Shown: piece by piece, positions 208 to 58,073 of the stretch
How positions within the stretch are numbered: position 1 is the stretch's first letter
How the letters are laid out: each line of letters starts with the position of its first letter
DNA from: Haloferula sp. BvORR071
GTDB lineage: Bacteria; Verrucomicrobiota; Verrucomicrobiia; Verrucomicrobiales; Akkermansiaceae
Assembly: GCF_000739615.1 (NCBI RefSeq)
Contig: NZ_BATP01000045.1
Location: forward strand, 1-64,000
Reading direction: 5' to 3'
DNA: 64,000 nucleotides
The notes under the pieces: model-generated
Seen by the model: only the letters and a program-made list of their open reading frames with translations
What the model was told of the DNA's origin: nothing
Database searches by the model: none
Program-made: the position numbers and the translations under genes

Positions 208-1023
208 ATGTGGACCAGCGTTCGGGAATTTGAGGACATTCGTTACGAGACGACGGATGAGGGGCAAATCGCCAAGATCACGATCAACCGCCCGGAGGTC
301 CGCAATGCCTTCCGCCCGCAGACGGTCAATGAGTTGCTGATTGCCTTTGAGCTGGCGCACGAGGACCCGGATGTGGGAGTGATCATCCTGACCGGTGAAG
401 GTCCGGACGCATTTTGCTCGGGGGGCGACCAGAAGGTCCGCGGCCACGCCGGCTACATCGGCAAGGACGGCATTCCGCGCCTGAATGTCTTGGATTTGCA
501 GAAGAAGATCCGCGGCTTGCCCAAGCCGGTGGTGGCGATGGTGGCAGGCTATGCGATCGGTGGCGGCCATGTGCTCCACGTGGTCTGTGACCTGACGATC
601 GCGGCGGATAACGCTCGCTTCGGGCAGACCGGCCCGAAGGTGGGATCTTTCGATGGCGGTCTGGGCTCCAGCTATCTTGCCCGTATCGTCGGTCAGAAGA
701 AGGCCCGCGAGATCTGGTATCTCTGCCGCCAATATGATGCGCAACAGGCACTAGATATGGGGTTGGTGAATACCGTGGTGCCCCTCGCCGAACTGGAGAC
801 GGAGACGCTGAAGTGGTGCCGTGAAATGCTGGCGCATTCGCCCTTGGCGCTGCGCTGCCTAAAGTCGGCTTTGAACGCGGATTGCGACGGTCAAATGGGC
901 CTGCTGGATCTCGCTGGAAACGCCACTCTGCTCTATTATATGAGCGAGGAAGCGAAGGAAGGTAAGCAGGCCTTCGTGGAAAAACGGGCTCCCGACTTCC
1001 GGAAGTTCCCGCGGGTTCCGTAA
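208..1023 (+). CDS. menB: 1,4-dihydroxy-2-naphthoyl-CoA synthase (MenB)
   Basis: Crotonase-fold enzyme that closes the second ring of o-succinylbenzoyl-CoA to give 1,4-dihydroxy-2-naphthoyl-CoA in menaquinone synthesis; cytoplasmic. At 271 aa it is the family length. Visible features are the SGGDQKVRG loop (residues 71-79), the oxyanion-hole stretch [11 protein letters not shown] (114-124), [13 protein letters not shown] (139-151), and the C-terminal [14 protein letters not shown] motif shared by MenB enzymes. The ATG at 208 puts the usual [13 protein letters not shown] start at the N-terminus. It follows the menH remnant closely. The remaining men genes come after an inserted outer-membrane gene. 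The identification is secure. Confidence 0.97.
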
Positions 1024-1227
1024 GTTCGCAGCGGGCTTTTCCCCTAGGCCACCGCCCGCGTGGTGGCGGCAGCACCGTACCCGGTTCGGGTGGCTCCTAT
1101 CAGGTCAAATGCTTCTATTGGTAGGGTTCCACGGGGTTCCCATCTTGATAATGCTTAACTACAAGAGGCTTGCATACCCTTATGGATCTGCTAGAAGACG
1201 CACGGTCGTAAAAGGCCACAACAGCCC

Positions 1228-2394
1228 ATGAGATACCAAAGTCGCCTCCTACAATCGTCCGTTCGTACCATCCTGGCGCTAGCGGCAATTACTCCCCTTG
1301 CTTTCGCAGGCAAGACCCCTCCTCCGGAGCCGGAACCACAGCCGGACTTCGAGTCGGCCTTCGCCCTCAATGCAGGGGTTGGCAATGCCGCCTTGAGTAC
1401 CGCCAGAGAGAGCACCCGTGATGTGGGTGACCGCTTGTTCCGCCTGCGCGCGGGACTTCGCCCGGCGGAACATACCGTCTCAGAAGAGGTCGCCCCTGCT
1501 GCTGGGTCCAAGGGTGGCATGACGACGACTCGAAGCGTCAGTCACATGAACTGCTGGGAAGTCTATGGCTCCCTGTTCTACTACACGGAAAGCCAGGACA
1601 GCCAGACCCAGATCTTGCGCACCGGCGTGGTCGGTGGACCAGCGGCGGTCTCGCTGTTCCAGCCGGACACCGACATCGATATTTTCGGCGGAACCGTCGG
1701 GATCGAACGCTACATCAACGAGAACTGGAGCGCGGGCTTTGCCCTGACGGCCTCCAATACCGATGTGGACGTAAGCTTCGCTGGTAGCAGCGATCTCGAT
1801 TCGATCTCCGTCACTCCCTACCTGTCCTACTACAAGTCGGACGTCTTTGGTGCGACGGACTTCTGGGCGGACGTGATGTACTCGCACGGCTTCCACGAGT
1901 TTGACACCCAGCGCTTCACCGGTACCGGTCTTGCGGCTGGTTCGCCGAATGCGGATACCGACCAGATTGAATTCACCACCGGTTTGAATTTCCAATCCGG
2001 CAGCGTGACCCACGGTCCATACGCCGGTGTGCGCTGGATCGACGGCTCGATCGATAGCTACACGGAAATCGGTGCCGGCGGCGCCTCGATTCCGGAGCAA
2101 GACGTCGAATCGCTGGCCAGCATTCTGGGCTACCAGCTGTCATTCCCGATTGCCACCAGTGCCGGAACTCTGGTGCCGCAGGTGCGTGGTGCTTGGGAAC
2201 ATGAGTTCGAGGACGACGGCAACGAGTTCCTCGGCATCTCCCTGGGCGAACGCGATGAAGACGTTGGCGTCTTCGGAGCTGGAATCGGCTACTACTTCAA
2301 CAACGGCTGGAACACGGTGCTCGACTACGAGGCACGTGTCAGCAGCCACGTGGAAGGTCACTACGTTTCGCTGAAGGTCGGCAAGGAGTTCTGA
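1228..2394 (+). CDS. Autotransporter-type outer-membrane beta-barrel protein
   Basis: A 388-aa exported protein. An N-terminal signal peptide (VRTILALAAITPLAFAG) is followed by a proline-rich stretch (PPPEPEPQPD, about residues 31-40), a short linker, and about 270 residues of alternating aromatic and polar strands (WEVYGSLFYYTES, GGTVGIERYINENWSAGFALT, PYLSYYKSD, YAGVRWIDG) ending in a terminal Phe. This is the pattern of an autotransporter beta-domain without a long passenger. The role is not known; a porin or surface anchor is possible. It stands alone: a 204-base gap precedes it, with a small GCCACC/GGTGGC hairpin at 1048-1067, and a strong terminator follows, so it interrupts the men genes without belonging to their pathway. 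Confidence 0.8.
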   Translation: MRYQSRLLQSSVRTILALAAITPLAFAGKTPPPEPEPQPDFESAFALNAGVGNAALSTARESTRDVGDRLFRLRAGLRPAEHTVSEEVAPAAGSKGGMTTTRSVSHMNCWEVYGSLFYYTESQDSQTQILRTGVVGGPAAVSLFQPDTDIDIFGGTVGIERYINENWSAGFALTASNTDVDVSFAGSSDLDSISVTPYLSYYKSDVFGATDFWADVMYSHGFHEFDTQRFTGTGLAAGSPNADTDQIEFTTGLNFQSGSVTHGPYAGVRWIDGSIDSYTEIGAGGASIPEQDVESLASILGYQLSFPIATSAGTLVPQVRGAWEHEFEDDGNEFLGISLGERDEDVGVFGAGIGYYFNNGWNTVLDYEARVSSHVEGHYVSLKVGKEF

Positions 2395-2432
2395 TCTCCG
2401 GAAGACCAACTGACGGTTTGTTTCGTTTGCGC

Positions 2433-2467
2433 GCCCGCCCCGGTGATTGCCGGGGCGGGCATTTCTT
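2433..2467 (+). terminator. Rho-independent terminator after the barrel gene
   Basis: Perfect 11-bp stem GCCCGCCCCGG / CCGGGGCGGGC (2433-2443 and 2450-2460), 6-base loop, then ATTTCTTT. It lies 38 bases after the stop codon. Confidence 0.9.
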
Positions 2468-2488
2468 TGGCGAGAGGAGGCCGGATCT

Positions 2489-2516
2489 GAAATTTCAAAT
2501 TTGAAATTTCAAATTC
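2489..2516. repeat. AAATTT word repeat, palindromic
   Basis: Bases 2489-2510 are a perfect 22-base palindrome built from GAAATTTC and CAAATTTG words, continued by AAATTC. It is extremely AT-rich in a GC-rich genome and sits just before menA. A related fragment lies at 50465-50487. It may be a regulatory palindrome or one of the lineage's intergenic word repeats. Confidence 0.65.
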
Positions 2517-2586
2517 ATGGGGCGGGGAAGTTCCTGCGGACGATTTGCTCTTGGCAGGGGGAGGGGCGGCGGGCTTGTTCCGGGGC

Positions 2587-3462
2587 GTGATCAAGCCCCT
2601 GCTGATGGCCACCCGGCCGAAGACCCTGCCCGCTGCGATTGTGCCGGTCTGGGCGGGATGTGTGCTGGCGTGGAAATTGACCGGCCGCTTCGACCTGATG
2701 CTGGCGCTGTGCACCTTGGGAGGGGCGGTCTTCATCCAGATCGCGACGAACCTCTTCAATGACGCGATCGACGCGGCAAAGGGGGCGGATACGGAGCGGC
2801 GGGTCGGTCCGCAGCGGGTGACGGCAAGCGGGCTGCTATCGCGGCAGGTGGTGATGGCGGGGGGCGCGGTATTCCTGCTGCTGGCGGTCGCCTGCGGGGT
2901 GGTGTTGATCCGGTCGGCCGGCTGGCCGATTCTGGCAATCGGGGTGCCATCGATGTATCTGGCCTACGGCTACACCGGCGGGCCTTTCCCGCTGGCGTAC
3001 CGGGGAATGGGGGAGATTTTCGTGGTGGCCTTCTTCGGGCTGGTGGCGGTGGCCGGCACGGTCTTCGTGCAAATCCACGAATGGCGCTGGGAGGCGCTGC
3101 TGCTCGGCGCGCAGATCGGTCTGCTCTCGGCGGTGCTGATTTCGATCAACAACCTGCGCGACCGCGAGGAAGACTCGACCACCGGCAAGCGCACGCTGGC
3201 GGTGCGGCTGGGGCCGAAGCCGGCGCGGGGGATCATCTGGCTTGAGATCAAGCTGACGATCTTCCTTGGGCTCGGCTGGTTCGCGCTGGGCCAGCCGTGG
3301 CTGGTGATGGCGGTGCTGCCGCTGCTGACGCTAGGGCTGCGGATCATCTGGGATGTCTTCACGATGGAGGAAGGGCCGGGGATGAACAAGCTGCTGGCCT
3401 TGTCGGCCTTGCAACTGGTGGCTTTCGCGGGCTTGTTCCACGTGCTGGCCGTAAAGTTTTGA
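2587..3462 (+). CDS. menA: 1,4-dihydroxy-2-naphthoate polyprenyltransferase (MenA)
   Basis: Integral-membrane UbiA-superfamily enzyme that attaches the isoprenoid tail to 1,4-dihydroxy-2-naphthoate, giving demethylmenaquinone. Counting from the chosen GTG (about 291 aa), it begins with the family-typical ATRPKTLPAAIVPVW. The two Asp-rich diphosphate and Mg motifs are visible: NDAIDAAKGAD (58-68) and NNLRDREED (189-197), followed by GKRTLAVRLG. About eight hydrophobic segments are present. An upstream TTG at 2545 would add 14 residues unlike the family, and the ATG at 2605 is a third option. It begins the menA-menC-menE run, with menC starting 10 bases downstream. Confidence 0.95.
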   Translation: MIKPLLMATRPKTLPAAIVPVWAGCVLAWKLTGRFDLMLALCTLGGAVFIQIATNLFNDAIDAAKGADTERRVGPQRVTASGLLSRQVVMAGGAVFLLLAVACGVVLIRSAGWPILAIGVPSMYLAYGYTGGPFPLAYRGMGEIFVVAFFGLVAVAGTVFVQIHEWRWEALLLGAQIGLLSAVLISINNLRDREEDSTTGKRTLAVRLGPKPARGIIWLEIKLTIFLGLGWFALGQPWLVMAVLPLLTLGLRIIWDVFTMEEGPGMNKLLALSALQLVAFAGLFHVLAVKF

Positions 3463-3472
3463 TTTGTTTTCC

Positions 3473-4471
3473 ATGGGCATCACCGATCTCACCACTGCCT
3501 CCGGCACGATCATCTGGTACTGGCACTACCGCCTGAAGAGCCGGCGGAGCCTGAACCTGAACGCGCGTTCGTCCCGAAGGGAATTCGAGGGCGTGCTGCT
3601 GAAGGATTCGGAAGGCGGGCACGCCTGCATTCACCCGTGGCCGGAATTGGGGGATCCCAGCTTGCAGAAGTGCCTGGAGGATTTGGCCGGACCGCGGCGC
3701 TGGCCGATCGTGCGGCGGGCGCTGCGTTGCCTGGAGATGGATGGCGCGGCGCGGTCCGTGGAGGATCCGTTGTTCGAGGACCTGGAGGTGCCCCTGAGTC
3801 ATGCGACGCTGGTTTCAGCCAATGCAGAAGAGGCGATGCGGGCGGTGGAGGCGGGCTTCACGGTGGCCAAGCTCAAGGGCGGGGCTTATCTCGAAAAGGA
3901 AGGGGATTTCCTCGTTCAGATGGCGAAGGCTCATCCCGGTCTGCGCTGGCGGATCGATTTTAACGAGAGCGGCGAGGCCAAGGAGATCGCCGAGTGGTTC
4001 ATGCGCTTGCCGGTGGAGGTAAGGAGCCGGATCGATTTCCTGGAAGATCCCTGCGAATATGCGGAGAGCACCTGGCGCAAGCTGTATGGCGATACCCGGG
4101 TGCCGCTGGCGGTGGACCGCGAGGCGGCCCCGCAGGCGACGGCGGCGCAAGTGGTGGTGGTGAAGCCGGCGATCGACGAGCCGTGGCTGCTGGCGGAGGC
4201 GGCGCAGGCCAAGGGGCAGGGTGTGGTGGTCACGAGCTACATGGATCATCCGCTGGGACAGGCTTTTGCGGCCTGGGAGGCGGGGCGGCTGGCCCTGCAG
4301 TTCCCGGGTGGGCTGGTGGGCACCTGCGGCTTGCAGACGCACCATCTCTTCGAGCCGGATGCCTTCACGGAAGCGCTGGGTCCATGGACGCCGGGCTTCA
4401 ATCCACCGCCGGGCAAAGGTTTGGGATTCGATGTTCTGTTGGATAAACTGCCATGGAAGCGGCTGCCCTGA
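3473..4471 (+). CDS. menC: o-Succinylbenzoate synthase (MenC)
   Basis: Enolase-superfamily dehydratase that turns SHCHC into o-succinylbenzoate. Although the sequence is divergent, all superfamily catalytic positions can be seen in the 332-aa product: the KxK pair in AKLKGG (K133, K135), metal ligands D162 (DFNE), E191 (EDP) and D215 (DREA), and the second base K231 (VVKPAI). The ATG at 3473 is chosen over a TTG at 3464 because it is the better codon and loses nothing conserved. The gene overlaps menE by 19 bases, which suggests coupled translation. Confidence 0.93.
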   Translation: MGITDLTTASGTIIWYWHYRLKSRRSLNLNARSSRREFEGVLLKDSEGGHACIHPWPELGDPSLQKCLEDLAGPRRWPIVRRALRCLEMDGAARSVEDPLFEDLEVPLSHATLVSANAEEAMRAVEAGFTVAKLKGGAYLEKEGDFLVQMAKAHPGLRWRIDFNESGEAKEIAEWFMRLPVEVRSRIDFLEDPCEYAESTWRKLYGDTRVPLAVDREAAPQATAAQVVVVKPAIDEPWLLAEAAQAKGQGVVVTSYMDHPLGQAFAAWEAGRLALQFPGGLVGTCGLQTHHLFEPDAFTEALGPWTPGFNPPPGKGLGFDVLLDKLPWKRLP

Positions 4472-5562
4472 TTGATCCGGGATTCTGGAAGCAGGAGACG
4501 CCGGTGCTGATGGGGCACGAAGGCCATGCTCCCGTGGGGATTCCGGGCTTGGTGTATTTCCGAAGTTCCGGCAGCACGGGCGAGCCGAAGTGGATCGGGC
4601 TGAGCCGCGAGGCGCTGCTAGCTTCTGCCGCGGCGGTGAACGCACATTTGCAGGTGGACCGCGATAGCTGCTGGGTGCTGGCGCTGCCACTGCATCATGT
4701 GGGTGGCTTCGGAGTGGTAGCGCGGGTTTTCCAAGCGGGCTGCCGGATGGCGAAATTTGAGGACAAGTGGAATGCTGCTGCCTTCGCTGCTTGGCTTGAG
4801 GAGATAGGCGGTACGCATCTCTCGCTGGTGCCGACGCAAGTGCATGATTTGGTGGCCGCTGGCCTGCGCGCGCCGGCGAGCCTGAAGGCGATCGTGGTGG
4901 GCGGTGGTATCTTGGGCGAGACCACGGGTCGCGCAGCGCGTGAGCTGGGCTGGCCGGTGCTGGCAAGCTACGGGATGACCGAAGCCGGATCACAGATCGC
5001 AACCCAGGGGCTGGAATTACTAGATCGACCGTATGTCACGGGCCCGATCGGGATTCTGACAAACTGGGAAGTGAACACCGATGAGGATGGTAGGATACTG
5101 CTGCGCGGTGATGCACTCTTCAGCGGGATGCTCAAATCAAGCGAGGGCGAGTGGAAGTACGAGGAACGTAGTGGCGAGTGGTTCGCGAGTTCCGATCTAG
5201 GCAAAGTAGAGAACGGGCAACTGCAAGTGCTCGGCCGGGCCGATACACTGGTGAAGATCCTCGGTGAGCTCGTGGATCCGGTGGCTGTAGAGGCTGAACT
5301 TCTGGCACTTGCGGGCGCGGCGCCGGGCAGTGCGGTAGTGGTGGCAGTGGCCGATCCTCGTGCGGGCAACAAGCTTGTGCTAGTTCACGAAACTGTCACT
5401 CCGGAGAGACCCTGGGCAGAGTTGCTTGAGCGTTATCACGCGAGTCGCCCCGGCTATCGCAGGATTCAATCGCTGATTGAGGTTCGCGAAATTCCGAAGA
5501 GCCCATTGGGCAAGCCGCGCCGCGCGGAGCTGTCACGATTTGCTGCGAAGAGGGCGATTTGA
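4453..5562 (+). CDS. menE: o-Succinylbenzoate-CoA ligase (MenE), short form
   Basis: ANL-superfamily adenylating enzyme that makes o-succinylbenzoyl-CoA, the MenB substrate. Signature motifs are the ATP loop FRSSGSTGEPKW (36-47), YGMTE (173-177), SSDLGKV (from 246), the hinge GRADTLVKILGE (261-272), and the C-terminal catalytic Lys region PKSPLGKPRR. At 369 aa it is clearly shorter than the usual 450-500, because the N-terminal subdomain before the ATP loop is reduced to about 35 residues; short MenE forms are known. It shares 19 bases with menC. Codon choice becomes slightly less GC-rich toward the 3' end. Confidence 0.92.
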   Translation: MEAAALIDPGFWKQETPVLMGHEGHAPVGIPGLVYFRSSGSTGEPKWIGLSREALLASAAAVNAHLQVDRDSCWVLALPLHHVGGFGVVARVFQAGCRMAKFEDKWNAAAFAAWLEEIGGTHLSLVPTQVHDLVAAGLRAPASLKAIVVGGGILGETTGRAARELGWPVLASYGMTEAGSQIATQGLELLDRPYVTGPIGILTNWEVNTDEDGRILLRGDALFSGMLKSSEGEWKYEERSGEWFASSDLGKVENGQLQVLGRADTLVKILGELVDPVAVEAELLALAGAAPGSAVVVAVADPRAGNKLVLVHETVTPERPWAELLERYHASRPGYRRIQSLIEVREIPKSPLGKPRRAELSRFAAKRAI

Positions 5563-5597
5563 GATTGCCATTCCAGCGCAGTCGGTAATAGTTCAGG

Positions 5598-5645
5598 AGT
5601 CTTGATTAAAAGACTTTACCATTTTCTGCCGCCGCGTGGCGGTTT
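5598..5645 (+). terminator. Two consecutive terminator-like hairpins after menE
   Basis: AGTCTT-GATTAA-AAGACT (5598-5615) is followed by TTACCATTTT, and then CCGCC-GCGT-GGCGG (5629-5642) is followed by TTTAA. Together they probably end the menA-menC-menE transcript. Each hairpin alone is modest. Confidence 0.55.
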
Positions 5646-5718
5646 AACGGAGCCCGGTGGCGGACCGGTTCTTCGTTCCTCGTGATCCGCCGGTAACTTA
5701 GCCCTACCACCCCTGCTC

Positions 5719-7251
5719 ATGATCCACCGTGCCGAGGACTCCCAAGCCCGACTTTTCGAAATCCAACAAGGTGGCGGAAGCGGACGAAGGAGTAGCAGAG
5801 CGGGGAAAAAAGCGCACCCGACCGACTTCGGGTTGCGTGCCCCGAACCAAGCCGTGAAGAACTTCGTGCTGGATACCAATGTGCTGCTGCACGATCCGGC
5901 CTGTCTCACCCGCTTCACGGACAATCACATCTGCCTCCCCGTGGATGTGCTGTCGGAGCTCGATCGCTTCAAGACGGAGCAATCCGAGCGTGGTGCCAAT
6001 GCCCGCAAGATCCACCGCACGCTCACGGAAATGTTTTCTTGTGCGCGCAAGGTGACCAGTGGTGTGCCGACCGACGGCGGCGGCAGTATCCGGCTGGTAG
6101 TCTATGATCCATCGCTGTGCGCGAAGAATTCCGATATGCTCACACGCTTCCACCGGATCTTTCCGGACAAGGAGCGAGTCGACCACCGGATCCTTGCCTG
6201 CACGCTGCTGCTGATGACCCACAACCAGGCACCGGTGGTGCTGGTGACGAAGGATCTCAACATGCAGCTCAAAGCCCGCGCGGTGGGCATCGATTGTCAG
6301 GACTATCTCAACGACAAGGTCGATCCCAAGGAAGCGTCGGCCTACGATGTCCGTCGTATCGAGGTGGACACCTCGGACTTGCAGCGTTTCGCGAGTTCGG
6401 GGGAGTTGGCGGTGGGCCGGGATTTTGCAGAGATTGCGATCAATGAGTACGTGCTACTGGCCTCCGGCGAGAAGCAGACGATGCCAGCGCGGATGAGTGC
6501 GAACGGCAGCCTGGTGCGCCTGCAGATTCCAGAGGCGTTGAAAATCCAGGACGGCACAGCGCTGAAGCCGATGAACCTGGGCCAACGCTGCCTAATCGAT
6601 GCACTGCTCAATCCGGATATTTCGCTGGTGACTTGCTTCGGCCAAGCTGGAACGGGCAAAACCCTGATCGCCGTGGCGGCGGGGCTGCACGAGATGTTCA
6701 ACCGGCGCTACAATGGCCTGACCGTGAGTCGGCCGGTGGTGGCGATGGGCGACCAGCTCGGCTTCCTGCCGGGCACGCTGGACGAAAAAATGCGGCCTTG
6801 GCTGCAACCGATCCACGATGCGCTGGACCTTTTGATGCGCCCGGCGGCACCGCTGGGCCCGCGTCGTAAGCAGAGCAAGAAGGAAGACGGCCAAAGCGGT
6901 GGCGGCCCGGTGAAGAAGCCTTGGGAGCACCTGATGGAGCAGGGGATCATCGAGGTGGAAGCGCTGTGCTACATCCGCGGACGCTCGATCCCGAACCGCT
7001 TCTTCGTGTTGGACGAAGCGCAGCAGCTGACGCCGCAGGAGGCCAAGACCGTGGTGACCCGGATGTCGCGCGGCTCCAAGCTGGTCCTGGCGGGCGATCC
7101 TGCGCAGATCGACAATCCCTATGTGGACAGCCGCAGTAATGGTTTGGTTTACACCAAGAACCGGCTGAAAGGGCTGCCCTTCGTGGCGCACGTCTCGCTC
7201 AGCCGGGGCGAGCGCTCGGAGCTGGCGGACGCGGGCGCGCAGCTGATGTGA
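5719..7251 (+). CDS. PIN-PhoH family protein (PhoH-like ATPase)
   Basis: A 510-aa protein with an N-terminal PIN nuclease domain (KNFVLDTNVLLHDP at 47-60, then acidic residues E80, D155 and D179 in VTKDLN) and a C-terminal PhoH ATPase. The ATPase shows Walker A GQAGTGKT (308-315), Walker B FFVLDEAQQLTPQEAK, LAGDPAQID, and the closing SRSNGLVYTKNRL...LSRGERSELAD. PIN-PhoH proteins are thought to be RNA helicase/nucleases. The first 46 residues are unlike a normal leader. Another frame from the GTG at 5730 encodes a Lys-rich segment ending RTKP just where the PIN domain begins, so the true N-terminus may be frameshifted. A terminator hairpin follows. Confidence 0.9.
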   Translation: MIHRAEDSQARLFEIQQGGGSGRRSSRAGKKAHPTDFGLRAPNQAVKNFVLDTNVLLHDPACLTRFTDNHICLPVDVLSELDRFKTEQSERGANARKIHRTLTEMFSCARKVTSGVPTDGGGSIRLVVYDPSLCAKNSDMLTRFHRIFPDKERVDHRILACTLLLMTHNQAPVVLVTKDLNMQLKARAVGIDCQDYLNDKVDPKEASAYDVRRIEVDTSDLQRFASSGELAVGRDFAEIAINEYVLLASGEKQTMPARMSANGSLVRLQIPEALKIQDGTALKPMNLGQRCLIDALLNPDISLVTCFGQAGTGKTLIAVAAGLHEMFNRRYNGLTVSRPVVAMGDQLGFLPGTLDEKMRPWLQPIHDALDLLMRPAAPLGPRRKQSKKEDGQSGGGPVKKPWEHLMEQGIIEVEALCYIRGRSIPNRFFVLDEAQQLTPQEAKTVVTRMSRGSKLVLAGDPAQIDNPYVDSRSNGLVYTKNRLKGLPFVAHVSLSRGERSELADAGAQLM

Positions 7252-7267
7252 GGCCTTAATTCCAAAA

Positions 7268-7294
7268 GGGCGCGGGGTGAATCCCGCGCCCTGA
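7268..7294 (+). terminator. Hairpin terminator after the PIN-PhoH gene
   Basis: Perfect 9-bp stem GGGCGCGGG / CCCGCGCCC with loop GTGAAT (7268-7291). Only a weak T-tract (TGATT) follows. Confidence 0.6.
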
Positions 7295-7330
7295 TTGACA
7301 GCCACGGAGGTCCGTCGTTTACTCCTGCCG

Positions 7331-7909
7331 ATGTTGCGTTGGTTGCGCGGTTGTTTGCTTCTGGCCCCGGTTCTGATGTCCGGTTGTGGGGCATACCAGC
7401 GGGGCAACGGCTGGCGTGACGCCTTGGTGGCGCAAACCGCGCAACTGGGCTACCGGAACTGGATCGTGGTGGCGGAAGCGTCCTTCCCTGCGCACAGCCG
7501 GCCGGGGGTCAGGCAGATCAATGCCAACGAGGAAATACCGGTGGTGGTGGACGAGGTGCTACGGACGCTGGAACAGACCGAGCACGTGACGCCGAATATC
7601 TTCGTGGCCCGCGAGATGCGGGTGGTGGAGAACGACTACGCGCCGGGAATCGATGATTTCCGCAAGCGCCTGCAGGCGTCCTTGCACGCCCGCGAGACGA
7701 CCGAGCTGGAGCAGCAGTCGCTGATGACGCTGATGGAGGACGCGACCAAGAGTTTCGAGGTGCTGGTGATCCGGACGAACACGGCGCTGCCCTACAGCAG
7801 CGTCTTCATGGAGTTGCAGCCGGGGTATTGGAATTCGGATTCCGAAGGCCGCCTGCGCGACCGGATCGAGCGGCAGCGAATGGAAAAGCTGGCCCGGCCG
7901 CTCCAGTGA
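7331..7909 (+). CDS. Lipoprotein with RbsD/FucU-like domain
   Basis: A 192-aa protein. From the ATG at 7331 it has a lipoprotein signal: LRWLRGCLLLAPVLMSGC, with the Cys about residue 19. The rest resembles the RbsD/FucU sugar-mutarotase fold. It has TAQLGYRNWIVVAEASFP, where RbsD has a helix and then DTLVVCDAGLP, and VLVIRTNTALPYSSVFMEL, matching the RbsD C-terminal VIRSGECSPYANIIL. This comparison is from memory of the family. A membrane-anchored, exported RbsD-like protein is unusual, since RbsD and FucU are cytoplasmic, so the fold may be reused for another job. A TTG at 7295 is an alternative start. The Mini-III-like gene follows 18 bases later. Confidence 0.65.
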   Translation: MLRWLRGCLLLAPVLMSGCGAYQRGNGWRDALVAQTAQLGYRNWIVVAEASFPAHSRPGVRQINANEEIPVVVDEVLRTLEQTEHVTPNIFVAREMRVVENDYAPGIDDFRKRLQASLHARETTELEQQSLMTLMEDATKSFEVLVIRTNTALPYSSVFMELQPGYWNSDSEGRLRDRIERQRMEKLARPLQ

Positions 7910-7927
7910 AGGAAGTCTGCCGCGGCG

Positions 7928-8212
7928 ATGAACAAGACCGACGAAATCCGCTTGGAGCGCGAATCCGCCTGGATCGGGGATGCCGTGCTGGCGCTCTTCG
8001 CCCGGAGCTGGGTGCTGCGTGAGCGCGGGACGATGGACGGCGAGTGGTTCACGCGGATGACCTCGAACGGCTTCCTGAGTGCCTTCGGCGCGCCGACGGC
8101 GGTGGAAGCGAAGATCGGGCGGATCTACCGTGAGCAGGGGCTGGATGCGGCCTTCGCGTGGATGGATGCGGAATTGGTGCCGCTATTCCGGAAGCAGATG
8201 GCCAAAAGGTAG
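7928..8212 (+). CDS. Mini-ribonuclease III-like protein
   Basis: A 94-aa protein whose N-terminal helix ESAWIGDAVLALFARSWVL (about residues 12-30) matches the RNase III signature. The Asp of GDAVL is kept. The residue four before it is Ala, as in Mini-RNase III (LAYIGDAV), rather than the Glu of full RNase III. The later stretch SNGFLSAFGAPTAVEAKIG fits the second helix, and GLDAAFAWMDAELVPLF the end. No double-stranded RNA-binding domain is present, and it is shorter than MrnC (about 130-140 aa). A role in rRNA or other RNA trimming is an inference. Its stop codon lies inside a palindromic repeat, convergent with modB. Confidence 0.65.
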   Translation: MNKTDEIRLERESAWIGDAVLALFARSWVLRERGTMDGEWFTRMTSNGFLSAFGAPTAVEAKIGRIYREQGLDAAFAWMDAELVPLFRKQMAKR

Positions 8213-51087: not shown

Positions 51088-51219
51088 GAATTCAGAATGC
51101 CGAATTCGCGAATGTCGAATGAAGTGTTTGGGAGGGCGGGATAAGAGGAGGACGGGTGCCCGGCCTCGTTCCGATCTCTGCCTCATTCGGCATTCGAAAA
51201 TTCGGCATTCGTCATTTCC
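51088..51219. repeat. GAATGCCGAA word-repeat block, inverted pair
   Basis: GAATTCAGAATGCCGAATTC then GCGAATGTCGAATGAAG (51088-51124) faces TCATTCGGCATTCGAAAATT and CGGCATTCGTCATTTCC (51184-51219), an inverted arrangement of the same words around a 60-base spacer, between the HD gene and the P450 gene. The final bases coincide with the last codons of the P450 gene. Confidence 0.65.
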
Positions 51220-52552
51220 TCTCTTCGACCTTCAGCCGCATCCCGCCCTTCGGCCGCAGCGTGATCAGCGGATCGGGCACGACCTCGAAGCCTGGAGCCG
51301 GGCGGAAGCGCAGCTGCTTCAAGAACACCACGGTCATGACCACCAGCTCCTGCAGGGCGAACTGGTTGCCGATGCAGGTGCGTGGGCCGGCGCCGAAGGG
51401 CATGTAGATCTCCGGTGCTGGGCGGCGCTCGGGCAGGAAACGGTCGGGGTCGAACTTGAGCGGCTCGTCCCACCACTGCTCGCTGCGGTGGAAGTGGATG
51501 ATCGGGATGATCAGATTCGTGCCGCGGCGGATGTGGTAGCCGCCGAGATCATCCTCCTTCACGCAGCAGCGGCCTACCGACCAGATGGTTGGGTAGAGGC
51601 GCAGGGATTCCTCAATCACCCGCTTGGTGTAGGGGAAGGCGGCGAGATTGCCGGTTTCGAGGGCGTCGCCCGCGGCGTCGATCTCTTCCAACAGCTTGGC
51701 CTCGATCTCCGGTTGCTTGGAGACCAGGTGGAGGAGCCAGGTCATGGCGTTGGCGGTGGTCTCATGGCCTGCCACATACATGGTCATGACCTCGTCGCGG
51801 AGCTGGGTATTGCTCATGCCCTTGCCGGTTTCCTCGTCGCAGGCAGAGAGGAACATCGAGAGCAAGTCATCGTGGTCCTCGCCACCCTTGCGGCGGCGCT
51901 CGATGATACCGTGGACGGTGGCATCCAGCGCGGCCCGGGCACCATACTCGACCTTGGTGAAGGGCGTGGGGAAACTGCGCGGCAGGAAGAAGCGCCAGGG
52001 CTGCGACAGCATCTTGAGCGCGGTCTCATTCAGCGTGGCGATGTGGCGGCCAACCTCACCGGCGCTGGCATCCACGTCCGTGCTGAACATCGCCCGCGAG
52101 ATGATCTCCAGCGTGAGCTGGGAAAAGAGCGGCGCGATATCGAGCTCGCCTTGCTGCGAGTTGAGACGGTTGGCGTAGGCCCGCGAGCGCTCGACCATCA
52201 TGGCGAAGATCGCGTCCAGTCGGCGGCGGTGGAAGGCGGGCTGGGTCAGCTTGCGCTGGCCGCGCCAGAACTCGCCGGAGCTGGTGACCAGTCCATTGCC
52301 CATTAGGATCCGGAGCACCACGTAGGAGCGGCTCTTCTCCAAGTAGTGGTTGTATCGCTCCGCCAGGACTTGGCGGGCGAGTTCCGGGTTTGCGACCACG
52401 GTGACTCCGCCGAGGCGTGAGCTGATCGTGAAGAGATCGCCGTATTCCTTGGTCCACTGGGGAATCCACTTGATGGGATTCTCGCGCATGTAACGGGCAG
52501 GCCCCATCAACCAGTGACGGGGCTCGGTGACTTGAGGAGCGAGCGTGATCAT
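51212..52552 (-). CDS. Cytochrome P450
   Basis: A 446-aa P450. The I-helix AGHETTANAMTWLLHL, the ExxR motif EESLRLYPT, and the heme-binding loop MPFGAGPRTCIGNQFALQE with its Cys are all present. The N-terminus lacks a membrane anchor (LAPQVTEPRHWLMGPARYMREN), so it is probably soluble or peripheral. It is the third gene of an operon with a TetR regulator and an SGNH hydrolase, coupled by ATGA overlaps (52549-52552). No ferredoxin or reductase gene is nearby. Substrate unknown; a fatty acid or lipid is a reasonable guess. Confidence 0.95.
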   Translation of the reverse strand: MITLAPQVTEPRHWLMGPARYMRENPIKWIPQWTKEYGDLFTISSRLGGVTVVANPELARQVLAERYNHYLEKSRSYVVLRILMGNGLVTSSGEFWRGQRKLTQPAFHRRRLDAIFAMMVERSRAYANRLNSQQGELDIAPLFSQLTLEIISRAMFSTDVDASAGEVGRHIATLNETALKMLSQPWRFFLPRSFPTPFTKVEYGARAALDATVHGIIERRRKGGEDHDDLLSMFLSACDEETGKGMSNTQLRDEVMTMYVAGHETTANAMTWLLHLVSKQPEIEAKLLEEIDAAGDALETGNLAAFPYTKRVIEESLRLYPTIWSVGRCCVKEDDLGGYHIRRGTNLIIPIIHFHRSEQWWDEPLKFDPDRFLPERRPAPEIYMPFGAGPRTCIGNQFALQELVVMTVVFLKQLRFRPAPGFEVVPDPLITLRPKGGMRLKVEERK

Positions 52553-53760
52553 TTGACCGGAGTGATGGTGAAGTGATAAGGGCGGGGCTTGGCGGCCTGG
52601 CGTTGGAGTTCGACCAGAAGATCGTCTTGCTTGGTGATCTCCTTGGGGATGGCGTCGCCTTGCACAGCGAGGAGTTCACCCTGGAGGCGTTTTGCTTCGC
52701 TGAGCTTGTCACGCGCATCCACGAGCTCTTTCACCACGCAGGACTGGGCGTCCCAAGGGCCGCCGGGGAACCAGCCGCTGCCGGTCTTGGAGGCGATGTT
52801 CACGCCGCGGCTCAGGCTCTCCGCATTTTCCTTGCCCACGTCACGGCCATCGACGGTGATCTGGTATTCCCCCGCGGGAAGATTTTTCACCGCGAGCTGA
52901 TAGCGGTTGATGCCCTCGGGGATCGAGATCCAGCGATACTGCAGGCCGGTGAAGGGGCCGAAGTTGACGGGCAGTCCCTGATCGAGGCGCGTGAAGGACA
53001 GGCCTCCGTCCTTTGCTTCGATCGCGGAGACCGCGCAGCCTTGGGTCTCCGCCTTAAGCGCGCCTGGATCCAGCGTCGCTGAAGAAACATCTTCCGGTGC
53101 TCCGAGGCCCTTGATCATCGCATAGGCCATCGCCATCTGGCCGAGATCTTCGAGATGGATGCCATCCTTCACGTGCATCTTCACTTGGTCCTCGGGCTTG
53201 GCCTTGCTGTTGTGATCCAGCACGCGACGCTGCACCTCGCGCATGCCGCGCTGGAGATCGATCGTTTCCGCGCCGAGCGAATTGGCGAGTGCGAGGCCCT
53301 CATCGGTCATCGTCTGCAGGTAGCCTTTCTCGGCGGTATCGGGCCCCTCCGCAGTGATGGCGGGTGAGCAGATGATTGGACGGACCTTCTTCTCCTTACA
53401 GCGCGCGATGATCGTGCGGATGCCGTCGAGGTAGAGCTTCTTGTGCTCGTCGTCGGCCTTGGTGCCCCAGCCGATGTCGTTGATGCCGAAGGCCACGGTG
53501 ACCACCGTCGCGCCCTTGGCGAAGACATCGCGCTCCAGGCGTTGCAGGCAGCCATTGGCGGTGTCGCCGCCTTGGCCGGCATTCACGAAGCGGACCTTGC
53601 GATCGGGGTAGCGCATCAGCGTGTAATGCTCCACGACCTTGGTATAGCCGCGGGCGGCGGTGATGCTGTCACCGAGGAAGGCGAGGGTGTCGCCATCGCG
53701 CAGCGCGTATTCGGCGTGGGCGAGGCTGACGGTGGCGAGGAGAAGTAGCAGGGATCTCAT
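52549..53760 (-). CDS. Secreted SGNH/GDSL hydrolase
   Basis: A 403-aa exported protein: signal peptide SLLLLLATVSLAHAEYALRDG, then block I FLGDSITAARGYTKVVEHY (Ser), block II-like VNAGQGGDTANGCL, block III GINDIGWG, and block V DGIHLEDLGQMAMAY (Asp-x-x-His). The C-terminal half adds a beta-rich part. SGNH enzymes deacylate or deacetylate lipids and glycans. Being between a TetR regulator and a P450 suggests handling of a hydrophobic ester or its signal. The ATG at 53760 is inside an ATGA overlap with the TetR stop; the far-upstream start is rejected. Confidence 0.9.
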   Translation of the reverse strand: MRSLLLLLATVSLAHAEYALRDGDTLAFLGDSITAARGYTKVVEHYTLMRYPDRKVRFVNAGQGGDTANGCLQRLERDVFAKGATVVTVAFGINDIGWGTKADDEHKKLYLDGIRTIIARCKEKKVRPIICSPAITAEGPDTAEKGYLQTMTDEGLALANSLGAETIDLQRGMREVQRRVLDHNSKAKPEDQVKMHVKDGIHLEDLGQMAMAYAMIKGLGAPEDVSSATLDPGALKAETQGCAVSAIEAKDGGLSFTRLDQGLPVNFGPFTGLQYRWISIPEGINRYQLAVKNLPAGEYQITVDGRDVGKENAESLSRGVNIASKTGSGWFPGGPWDAQSCVVKELVDARDKLSEAKRLQGELLAVQGDAIPKEITKQDDLLVELQRQAAKPRPYHFTITPVK

Positions 53761-54458
53761 GGCAAAAGTCCGTGAACGAGGAATTCGATGGTGGAGTGCT
53801 CGAAGCTGGCTTCGTCGAGCGCGGCGAGTCCGGGGTCGAGAGGTCGCTGGAGATTGGCCCAGGTGATCGATTGGATCATGAGGGCGGCCGTGCTGGCGGG
53901 ATCGGCGGGGGAGCGGAATTGTCCGGCGGCTGCCCGCAGGCGGATGTAGTGGACCAATTGCTCCAACAGCTTGTTGCGCAGCCCCATGACGAAGACCTCC
54001 GCAAGGCCGGGAAACTCCATTGCCGAGCGTGTGAGCAGGAGCAGGCCGCGGCGGTGCTGGCGGATCAGCGCATACTGCTCGCTCAGGACACCTGCCAACT
54101 CCGCGGCGGGATCCTTCGCGCGCTTTTTCTCCAGCGCCGCGGCTAGGCAGGGCCACTCGGTTTCATCGAAGACCTTCTTCAGGTAGGCCATCGTCGCGCC
54201 CGGGGCGGGGGTGGCCACGGGGATTTCGAGCTGGTCGAGCCATGAGGCATCCGCGCTTGAGCCGTAGCGGATCACCAGATCGAAGAGCGCCTCCTTGCTC
54301 CCTACGTAAAGATATACGGTGCCGACCGCCACCTTCATGGCCTTCGCCACGTCCGCCATCTGGGAGCGCTCGAAGCCTTGGCGGCAGAAGACTTGCAGGC
54401 CCGCCTCGGCGAGCTCGCGCAGGCGCTTCCCGGAAATATCGGCCTTGAGCACGGGCAT
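53757..54458 (-). CDS. TetR-family transcriptional regulator
   Basis: A 233-aa regulator: AGLQVFCRQGFERSQMADVAKAMKVAVGTVYLYVGSKEALFDLVI is the HTH (about 18-62). The rest is an all-helical ligand domain. It leads the TetR-SGNH-P450 operon and shares ATGA with the next gene. A perfect palindrome lies nine bases before the start codon, so it almost surely controls its own operon and is released by the substrate or product of the two enzymes (inference). Confidence 0.93.
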   Translation of the reverse strand: MPVLKADISGKRLRELAEAGLQVFCRQGFERSQMADVAKAMKVAVGTVYLYVGSKEALFDLVIRYGSSADASWLDQLEIPVATPAPGATMAYLKKVFDETEWPCLAAALEKKRAKDPAAELAGVLSEQYALIRQHRRGLLLLTRSAMEFPGLAEVFVMGLRNKLLEQLVHYIRLRAAAGQFRSPADPASTAALMIQSITWANLQRPLDPGLAALDEASFEHSTIEFLVHGLLP

Positions 54459-55179: not shown

Positions 55180-56307
55180 ATGGCCGGGACTCTCGTTCGA
55201 GTGCTCACTGCGGTTCCGCTCTGCGACGGCCATGACAGCGCGATCACGGCGATTAACCTTGAGCTGATCCGCCAAGGGATCGAGGTCGTCTATCTGGGTT
55301 TCCATCGTGCGGTAGGGGAGATCGTTCGTGCTGCGGTGCAGGAGGATGTCGCTGCCGTGGGCATCTCCAGCTACAATGGCGGGCACATCGAATTCTTCCG
55401 CGAAGTGGCGGCGGGTCTGCGGGATGCGGGGCGACCGGAGATTGGTCTCTTCGGCGGTGGCGGCGGCACCATCACTCCTAGCGATGCCGCCCGGATGCAT
55501 GAAGAAGGAACCGATCGGATCTTCCTTCCTGGCGCGACCTTTGACGAGATGACGGCCTACATCCGCAGCCGCTTTGCGCGGACGGTGGCAGCACCACCAA
55601 TCGAGGTCTCGTCCGCCGATCCGCTGGTGCTCGCCCGCCGTATCACCTGCCTGGAAGAAGGCGTGGACCCAGGCCGCGAGCCTCCACCGCGGGGTGAAGC
55701 ACCGGTGCTCGGCATCACCGGTCCCGGCGGGGCAGGCAAGACTACCTTGATCGATGAACTGGTGCGCCAATACCTTGAGAGATTTCCGCGCCACCGCGTT
55801 GCCATCCTCTCGCACGATCCCAGCACCATGATGGCGGGCGCACTCTTGGGGGACCGGGCCACGATGGTCTATGCTCAGGACGACCGGGTCTTCCTGCGCA
55901 GCATGGCGACTCGTGGGCGGCAGGGTGGGCTATCTCCCGCCAGCGAACCGGCCTTGGCATGGCTGGCTAGCGCGGAGAGCGGCTTTGATCTGATCATCGT
56001 CGAGACCGTGGGCATCGGCCAAGAAGCGCTGCCTTTCCCGGCGGGGATGGTTGATCTGCGCCTGCTGGTGATGAACACAGACTACGGCGCGCGCTTGCAA
56101 TTGCAGAAGATCCTGATGCTGGAGGCTGCCGAGATCGTGGTCGCCAACAAACACGACCGTCCGGGCAGTGCCACCGCAGTGGCGGAGATCGGGCGCTATC
56201 TCGCGACCTTTGCTCCCGGCAAGCCGCTGCTACCGACCGTCGCCAGTCGCCATGCGGATCCCGGCGTCGCGCGGCTGCTTGAATTCATTCCTTCATCGCG
56301 CCCATGA
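55180..56307 (+). CDS. IcmF-type fused-mutase N-half: B12-binding domain plus MeaI-like GTPase
   Basis: A 375-aa protein matching the first two domains of isobutyryl-CoA mutase fused (IcmF). Residues 1-130 are the cobalamin-binding domain: CDGHDSAITAINLELIRQG with the axial His (H18), GISSYNGGHIEFF, and LFGGGGGTITPSDAARM. Residues 170-370 are the P-loop GTPase chaperone: Walker A GPGGAGKTT (181-189), DPSTMMAGALLGDRATMV, ETVGIGQE and NKHD (323-326), the last replacing the IcmF NKFD. IcmF is normally one long chain. Here the chain stops and the mutase domain follows as a separate gene with a four-base overlap (56304-56307). Confidence 0.9.
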   Translation: MAGTLVRVLTAVPLCDGHDSAITAINLELIRQGIEVVYLGFHRAVGEIVRAAVQEDVAAVGISSYNGGHIEFFREVAAGLRDAGRPEIGLFGGGGGTITPSDAARMHEEGTDRIFLPGATFDEMTAYIRSRFARTVAAPPIEVSSADPLVLARRITCLEEGVDPGREPPPRGEAPVLGITGPGGAGKTTLIDELVRQYLERFPRHRVAILSHDPSTMMAGALLGDRATMVYAQDDRVFLRSMATRGRQGGLSPASEPALAWLASAESGFDLIIVETVGIGQEALPFPAGMVDLRLLVMNTDYGARLQLQKILMLEAAEIVVANKHDRPGSATAVAEIGRYLATFAPGKPLLPTVASRHADPGVARLLEFIPSSRP

Positions 56308-58073
56308 ACGACTTGGCTGAAATCGCGAATGCCGTGCGCCGCTTCAACGCGACGGTGGAGGATCGCGTGGCCGAGGCTCGGCGCGATCCCGCTGCTGGAG
56401 AAGTCCTGCTCGCCCGCTGGCGCGAAATCCAAGCGCGTATTCCCCACGCCGAGACGCCCACGGGCCTCTCCTTGCCGCGCCTCTCCTTGCCGGAGCTCGA
56501 CGAACCCGGGGCGATCGCCCGCTTCCTCCATGGCGAGGGGCTGCCCGGCGAGTTTCCCTTTCTCTCTTCCGCCTATCCCGAACTCTACTTGGATCCGCTT
56601 GATGCTGGCGGCCAAGCCGATGTGGCCGAGAGAGCGGAGGAGCCGACGCGGCTCTTTGCAGGACTCGGTCTCGCGGAGGATACCAATGAGCGCTTCCACC
56701 TGCTCGTCCACAACCAGCGCTCGCACCGCATGAGCACCGCCTTCGACGGGCCCACTCTCTATGGCATGGATAGCGATGAGCCGGGAGTCTTCGGTAAAAT
56801 CGGAGAGGGCGGCGTGGCGATCGACACGGTGGAGGACATGGAGAAGCTCTACGCGGGCTTCGATCTCACTGCTCCCACGACCTCGGTCTCGATGACCATC
56901 AACGGCCCTGCTCCAGCGATCCTGGCAATGTTCGTGGCGGCGGCCAAGCGGCGCTTCGGTCCCGATGCCGCAGCGCTCCTGCGCGGAACCGTGCAGGCGG
57001 ATATCCTCAAGGAGGTGCAGGCGCAGAACGAGGTGCTGTTCCCGGTGGGAGACTCGCTGCGCTTCCTGTTGGACATGTGCGTGCATTGCGTCGAACGCAT
57101 GCCGAAGTGGTATCCGGTCTCGATCAGCGGCTATCACATTTCCCAAGCCGGGGCCACGCCGGTGCAGCAGGCCGCCTTCACCTTGTCGAATGGCTTCGCC
57201 TATGTGGCGATGCTGCGCGAGCGTGGTCTGGCGGTGGATGACTTCGCGCCGCGGTTGTCCTTCTTCCTGGACTGCTCGCTGGATGTCGAATTCCTCGCGC
57301 TGGCCCGCGTCTGCCGGAAGCTGTGGGCGATTGGCATGCGCGATGTGTTCGGCGCCTCGGGCCGTGCACAGCTCTTCAAGCTCCACACCCAGACCAGCGG
57401 CCGCTCGCTGGTCTCCGCAGAGTACAAGAACAACCTGACTCGCACCGCGATCGAGCTGCTGCTGGCCTGCATGAACGCCACCAACTCTTGCCACAGCAAC
57501 AGTGCGGACGAGCCCTTCACCACGCCGGGTGAAGAATATGCCCGGCTGGCCTCGCACGCGCAGTCGATCCTGTTAGAGGAAAGCGGGCTCTTCCGCCACA
57601 CCATGAATCTACTCGCCGGTTCACCGGGGATGAAGCAGGTCGAGCGCGTGGTAGAAGACGCCGTCCTCGCCGAGTTCGAAACCATCGCCGGCCTCGGCGG
57701 AGTGCTCGAAGCGATGGAGCAGCGTTACCAGCGTTCCTGCATCCAGTCCGCGAGCTACCGCTACGAGCGCCAGATCCTTGATGGCACCCGTCCGGTGATC
57801 GGGGTGAACCGTTACTGTGGCGATGCCGCCCCGCCGGAGCCGCGGCTGGTGAGGATTCCCGAGGAGCGGAAGCGCGAGCAGGCGGCACGGCTGGGAGCCT
57901 TCAAGGATCGCAACCGCCATAGTGCCCCGGCTGCGCTTGAACGCCTCGCCCGGGTTGTGCGCGAGGGAGGGAATGTTTTCACGGAACTCCTGCAGACGGT
58001 GGAGTGTTGCTCGCTCGGCCAGATTACCCGCGCGCTTCAGGATGCCGTGGGTAAGTTTCGGCCTCTGGTCTGA
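56304..58073 (+). CDS. IcmF-type acyl-CoA mutase catalytic subunit
   Basis: A 589-aa TIM-barrel mutase. Matches the IcmF mutase domain: MSTAFDGPTLYGMDSDEPGVFGKIGEGGVAIDTVEDMEKLYAGFDLTAPTTSVSMTINGPAPAILAMF, RGTVQADILKE, the catalytic His in YPVSISGYHISQAG (H278), DDFAPRLSFFL and KLHTQTSGRSLV (H361 next to QTSG). The N-terminal substrate-side stretch SSAYPELYLDPLDAGGQADVAERAEEPTRLFAGLG replaces the AGV(Y/F)PFxR...EDPTRMFAGEG of IcmF and is longer, so the acyl-CoA substrate may differ. With its partner upstream it would need adenosylcobalamin and GTP. Confidence 0.9.
   Translation: MNDLAEIANAVRRFNATVEDRVAEARRDPAAGEVLLARWREIQARIPHAETPTGLSLPRLSLPELDEPGAIARFLHGEGLPGEFPFLSSAYPELYLDPLDAGGQADVAERAEEPTRLFAGLGLAEDTNERFHLLVHNQRSHRMSTAFDGPTLYGMDSDEPGVFGKIGEGGVAIDTVEDMEKLYAGFDLTAPTTSVSMTINGPAPAILAMFVAAAKRRFGPDAAALLRGTVQADILKEVQAQNEVLFPVGDSLRFLLDMCVHCVERMPKWYPVSISGYHISQAGATPVQQAAFTLSNGFAYVAMLRERGLAVDDFAPRLSFFLDCSLDVEFLALARVCRKLWAIGMRDVFGASGRAQLFKLHTQTSGRSLVSAEYKNNLTRTAIELLLACMNATNSCHSNSADEPFTTPGEEYARLASHAQSILLEESGLFRHTMNLLAGSPGMKQVERVVEDAVLAEFETIAGLGGVLEAMEQRYQRSCIQSASYRYERQILDGTRPVIGVNRYCGDAAPPEPRLVRIPEERKREQAARLGAFKDRNRHSAPAALERLARVVREGGNVFTELLQTVECCSLGQITRALQDAVGKFRPLV

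Follow-up and report, generated by a model that had tools for sequence, protein, structure and literature searches.

The gene pair and its break point

The window, by which we mean the whole 64,000-nucleotide stretch of Haloferula sp. BvORR071 DNA that was analysed, contains two overlapping genes on the + strand that divide the domains of an IcmF-type mutase between them. The upstream gene (55180..56307) encodes a 375-aa protein with Pfam B12-binding and MeaB domains, referred to here as the B12-G subunit, and the downstream gene (56304..58073) encodes a 589-aa protein with an MM_CoA_mutase domain, the TIM-barrel mutase subunit, which scores 382 bits with acid_CoA_mut_N. The ORF coordinates place the start of the mutase gene and the stop of the B12-G gene within a shared ATGA (56304..56307, +). 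A structure search identified one chain, C. metallidurans IcmF (4XC6), as the closest solved relative of both proteins, with residues 46-429 matched by the 375-aa protein (E 6.6e-62) and residues 553-1110 by the 589-aa protein (E 1.8e-124). Using the NCBIfam IcmF equivalog NF045497, the separate chains scored 272.7 bits (B12-G, matching profile positions 3-389) and 532.4 bits (mutase), which are both far below the 1500-bit cut-off. The B12 domain, G domain, linker and mutase that IcmF holds in one chain are encoded by two genes in every member checked. AlphaFold2 runs on each chain, with alignments of only 3 and 2 rows, returned pLDDT values of 47 and 48, too low for these models to be used for assessing the pocket.

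Pfam and profile matches within 55180..56307 (+) delimit an N-terminal B12-binding domain (residues about 5-135) and a MeaB-like G domain (residues about 170-370) in the B12-G subunit. The B12-binding domain carries DGHD with the cobalt-ligating His18 (55225..55236, +), which is invariant among the aligned split and fused members. Within the G domain, alignment locates the Walker A sequence GPGGAGKT (55720..55743, +) and the base-specificity motif NKHD (56146..56157, +), and alignment with 4XC6 identifies switch III residues Gln307 and Lys310 (56098..56109, +) as the equivalents of IcmF Q341 and K344, which are required for full GTPase activity (PMC10481361). The P-loop, NKxD and switch III Q/K of an IcmF-type MeaB-like G domain are therefore all present. 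The P-loop and NKxD, together with the axial His of DGHD and the SISGYH and QTSG sequences of the mutase, confirm an earlier note on this DNA, which had described these motifs as intact. That note had also singled out NKHD in place of NKFD. The letters are right, but they are no peculiarity, since NKCD, NKSD, NKTD, NKQD and NKHD all occur inside the split clade, and fused IcmF shows NKFD, NKFE, NKYE and NKAD in the same alignment; we therefore reject NKHD as a special trait and regard it as ordinary, uninformative variation. B12-G proteins of the genomes that we label G604, G362, G350, G451, G462, G404 and G586 carry a GGEKxCxLxV-type C-terminal tail, and the window's protein is without one.

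Alignment of the B12-G and mutase proteins with five fused IcmFs places the chain break directly after the G domain, ahead of the first linker helix, which leaves the B12 domain joined to its G-protein chaperone. The mutase N terminus, DLAEIANAVRRFN, aligns with RYLAEIADGVRGY of the fused IcmF linker. Residues 1-57 of the mutase (56304..56474, +) match the start and end of that linker, which spans 128-144 residues in fused IcmF and 63, or approximately half, in the split pair. Because the IcmF linker is structured and makes the dimer interface (PMC10356863), this match suggests that the mutase subunit retains a shortened dimerisation linker.

Distribution and phylogeny of the split form

The mutase was searched for in relatives, in the family, in the phylum and in the class, using a class sample of 384 genomes. 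It was found in 32 further genomes at about 59-82% identity, for a total of 33 genomes including the window, which belong to at least seven families of Verrucomicrobiae and of which 30 are in the class sample. Wherever this could be checked (32 of 32 genomes), the mutase gene is immediately preceded by a separate B12-G gene, which in one genome is cut by a contig end; in the other (G837), the contig ends upstream of the mutase. The two genes either overlap by 4 or 8 bp or lie 16 to about 170 bp apart, with outliers that stem from crude start choice in G261 (gap of 274 bp) and G545 (annotated overlap of 169 bp). Looking for other split pairs, as the earlier note had proposed, thus revealed the same two-gene form in no fewer than 31 further genomes of Verrucomicrobiae. 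That note had named an assembly error as what could undo its reading, and an assembly or sequencing error could in principle cut a single chain. However, 32 independently assembled genomes all have two genes with the break at this point, and their overlaps and gaps vary and include some clear spacers, which argues against both chance and assembly error. Nothing was found in favour of such an error, and with this conservation we rule it out as having a negligible probability. The open reading frames, the domains, the 4XC6 matches and the conservation across Verrucomicrobiae instead bear out the claim that an IcmF-type mutase is encoded here by two genes that overlap at ATGA.

The sole fused IcmF met in the phylum comes from a single bin, where its contig (G740:C98, L112) is 4 kb long and possibly misbinned. 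This gene runs off the contig and adjoins an ACAD, and the contig may be a contaminant. A contig scan with a single protein as query yielded no further split pairs; its only hits were a stand-alone ICM-like mutase in a Lokiarchaeota MAG and a fused IcmF in a MAG of marine Poseidoniaceae.

In a mutase tree of 35 sequences, the split and the fused IcmF proteins form one clade each (100/99 and 100/100, respectively), the two clades are sisters (100/100), and ICM-like, HCM and MCM proteins fall outside both, with the caveat that the join between IcmF and the outgroup crosses long branches. A second tree, based on the B12 and G part, agrees (97/94 and 100/99). The split clade lies outside the fused IcmF clade as its sister, with 97-100% bootstrap support for each side and identities between them of about 45% (mutase) and 35-40% (B12-G). 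The pair keeps the IcmF order of the three domains along the genes and, like fused IcmF, conserves F598/Q742, SISGYH, QTSG, DGHD, the P-loop and the switch III Q/K. Unlike fused IcmF, it forms two chains, has the shorter linker, and carries a different segment before the specificity Phe together with a hypervariable insert.

We considered two origins for this arrangement. If an ancestral fused IcmF had undergone fission in this lineage, with no functional consequence, this would fit the way in which the mutase N terminus matches the two ends of the linker in fused IcmF, for which a single break suffices. However, the fused IcmFs sampled together form the sister group of the split clade, which does not nest among them, and at many of the positions that distinguish split from fused members, the split proteins carry the residue of stand-alone ICM mutases and fused IcmF is derived. 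We give fission, which is compatible with our main functional reading, slightly less than an even chance. Because the split clade is a sister, an unfused ancestor is equally parsimonious, as either scenario, a fused ancestor that split or a pre-fusion state that survived, requires one step. The Verrucomicrobiae pair could tentatively be viewed as a pre-fusion stage of IcmF, in which a detachable, B12-carrying G protein would form MeaB-type dimers without the supramolecular assembly of fused IcmF and would dock on a free mutase dimer. We consider this possible but doubtful; if true, it would represent a third organisation of the cycle that links chaperone, cofactor and mutase.

The pair also differs from other known systems. 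In the three-part ICM and 2-hydroxyisobutyryl-CoA mutase (HCM) systems, which consist of a large subunit, a B12 subunit and MeaB/MeaH, the mutase is likewise a separate chain, but here the B12 domain and G protein share one chain and the mutase groups with IcmF in the tree. Methylmalonyl-CoA mutase (MCM) with MeaB/MMAA resembles the pair in its overall AdoCbl mutase fold and in having a MeaB-family chaperone on a chain apart from the TIM barrel, but here the B12 domain is on the chaperone and not C-terminal to the TIM barrel. A similar layout is seen in a Sinorhizobium medicae pSymA pair (L114), in which one ORF encodes the B12 and MeaB-like G domains (4923-6392) and adjoins a separate mutase (6293-8080). 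Its mutase is HCM-related with V/Q at the specificity positions, however, and its B12-G protein groups with stand-alone proteins, which suggests that this two-chain layout apparently arose independently.

Residues on the substrate side

We take F598 and Q742 of IcmF to be the residues that set ICM, HCM and MCM specificity. The published Q341 and K344 (PMC10481361) correspond to chain positions 361 and 364 of 4XC6, and the resulting offset of 20 makes F598 and Q742 chain residues F618 and Q762. Alignment shows the former to be the Phe of RMFAGEG and the latter to be the Gln of KEDQGQN. The earlier note, which had placed the specificity Phe in AGV(Y/F)PF, therefore referred to the wrong Phe. The F598 equivalent is retained as Phe118 in RLFAGLG (56649..56669, +), and the Q742 equivalent is retained as Gln241 in KEVQAQN (57024..57026, +). 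Phe and Gln occupy these positions in 33 of 33 split members, whereas HCM has Ile with Gln and MCM has Tyr and Arg. Placing F598, Q742, Q341 and K344 on 4XC6 rules out that specificity changed because the IcmF Phe was lost, and the presence of F/Q rather than Tyr/Arg rules out methylmalonyl-CoA mutase function. The active-site His278 lies in SISGYH (57120..57137, +).

The segment that does differ is SSAYPELYLD (residues 88-97; 56565..56594, +), which aligns in place of IcmF AGVFPFKR and adjoins a hypervariable insert (56595..56636, +) of 14 aa here and 6-51 aa in relatives. SSAYPELYLD is similar within the split clade, where Y91, E93 and Y95 are invariant, and it resembles RGPYPTMYRGR of stand-alone ICM, HCM and MCM proteins; the clade's AY.E(M/L)Y likewise resembles RGPYPTMY of the three-part systems. 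The insert shows little conservation among split members, and this hypervariability makes it unlikely to be a pocket wall. The longer segment reported in the earlier note is thus real, but its extra length is only the insert, which lies beside an AYPELY stretch like that of stand-alone mutases. Near the cofactor, changes specific to the split clade (HAQE to (V/I)(S/A)AE and NSLHTN to NSCHSN in the alignment) suggest that kinetics or substrate range could differ.

A pair with the same architecture might act mainly on another substrate, e.g., pivalyl- or isovaleryl-CoA, a 2-methylbutyryl-type acyl-CoA or a hydroxyacyl-CoA. Clade-wide changes on the active-site side (AGVFPFKR to AY.E(M/L)YL, HAQE to AAE and SLHTN to SCHSN) would be in line with such a shift, and the carboxyltransferase and AtuA genes nearby could point to leucine or methyl-branched substrates for some members. 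We consider another main substrate unlikely, because the F598 and Q742 equivalents, at which HCM and MCM differ, are kept throughout the clade, and the AY.EMY segment is like that of ordinary stand-alone ICM/MCM proteins. The altered acyl-CoA that the earlier note had deduced from the loop is therefore not supported. Based on these residues, the two proteins are probably the subunits of an AdoCbl-dependent mutase of the isobutyryl-CoA mutase type that acts on short-chain acyl-CoA.

Genomic context and proposed function

In relatives, the pair is found among genes for the catabolism of propionyl-CoA and branched-chain acyl-CoA. Four loci have methylcitrate-cycle genes, or relatives of such genes, near the pair: G037 has prpB, prpC and prpD together with ACAD, enoyl-CoA hydratase, HIBCH-like and SDR genes; G604 has prpC-prpD and a partial prpB; G362 has prpC and prpD; and G309 has prpB with citrate-synthase and MmgE/PrpD relatives. 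A fused 2-oxoacid dehydrogenase neighbours the pair in G615, and carboxyltransferase and AtuA genes do so in G350. The window pair stands alone, with genes for a P450, a GDSL hydrolase, TetR and a phosphoesterase around it and no acyl-CoA operon; the cytochrome P450, GDSL-type hydrolase and TetR regulator genes lie upstream on the - strand (51212-54458). Within its own genome, no other MM_CoA_mutase match, no other B12-G/MeaB match and no PrpD were found. The genome has one adenosyltransferase and one ACAD, beside which lie a FadJ-like gene and a gene that, judged from its sequence, encodes a thiolase, and these apparent beta-oxidation genes occupy 5004-10148 of L120 (G000:C7). The genome's other enoyl-CoA hydratase (window 208-1023) looks like menB and, by eye, begins a row of menB-, menA- and menC-like genes of menaquinone biosynthesis (window 208-4471). 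In the class sample, MCM co-occurred in 1 of 30 genomes with the split mutase, compared with about 82 of the 354 genomes without it (p about 0.009 by Fisher's test, with genomes classified by hand and without correction for relatedness).

Because the relatives' neighbours include prpBCD, 2-oxoacid dehydrogenase, ACAD and HIBCH-like genes, the most likely role of the pair would be that of an isobutyryl-/n-butyryl-CoA mutase that feeds branched acyl-CoA into beta-oxidation. The lack of such an operon around the window pair speaks against this role, as do, to the extent that they may alter kinetics or substrate range, the changes near the cofactor. Both substrate and direction are our reading of these data, and a comparable route, from isobutyryl-CoA to butyryl-CoA and two acetyl-CoA, has been proposed for syntrophs that isomerise isobutyrate (PMC5017805).

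Structures of MeaB and IcmF indicate that GTP maintains a dimer of G domains, which wedges open the mutase so that AdoCbl can enter, and that hydrolysis allows the mutase to close (PMC9974510, PMC10481361). Fused IcmF must oligomerise to form this dimer. As the B12-G chain is free, its G dimer could form as in MeaB, and the conserved switch III Gln307 and Lys310 are consistent with dimer formation of this type. We infer a complex and a GTP cycle that would proceed as follows. The mutase subunit would bind acyl-CoA in its TIM barrel, with Phe118 and Gln241, and would probably dimerise via its shortened N-terminal linker, and the B12-G chain would dock on it in trans. GTP on the G-domain dimer, with switch III contributed by the partner protomer, would keep the B12 domain off the barrel and thereby permit AdoCbl loading from the adenosyltransferase, and GTP hydrolysis would result in closure.

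In the open-licence papers searched, neither a split IcmF nor a comparable Verrucomicrobial ICM was mentioned, and the topology of a B12-G chain plus a TIM-barrel chain was likewise absent; with this scope, novelty is provisional. The pair is a conserved two-chain variant of the IcmF-type isobutyryl-CoA mutase that apparently has been undescribed so far. Structural studies of how B12 is delivered set free MeaB/MMAA against the fully fused IcmF and raise the question of what purpose fusion serves (PMC9974510, PMC10481361). The topology described here bears on why IcmF is fused, and a natural two-chain form renders G-domain dimerisation, B12 loading and mutase opening separable for study. For Verrucomicrobiae, the pair would indicate a route for branched-chain acyl-CoA in genomes that, among those sampled, rarely carry MCM as well.
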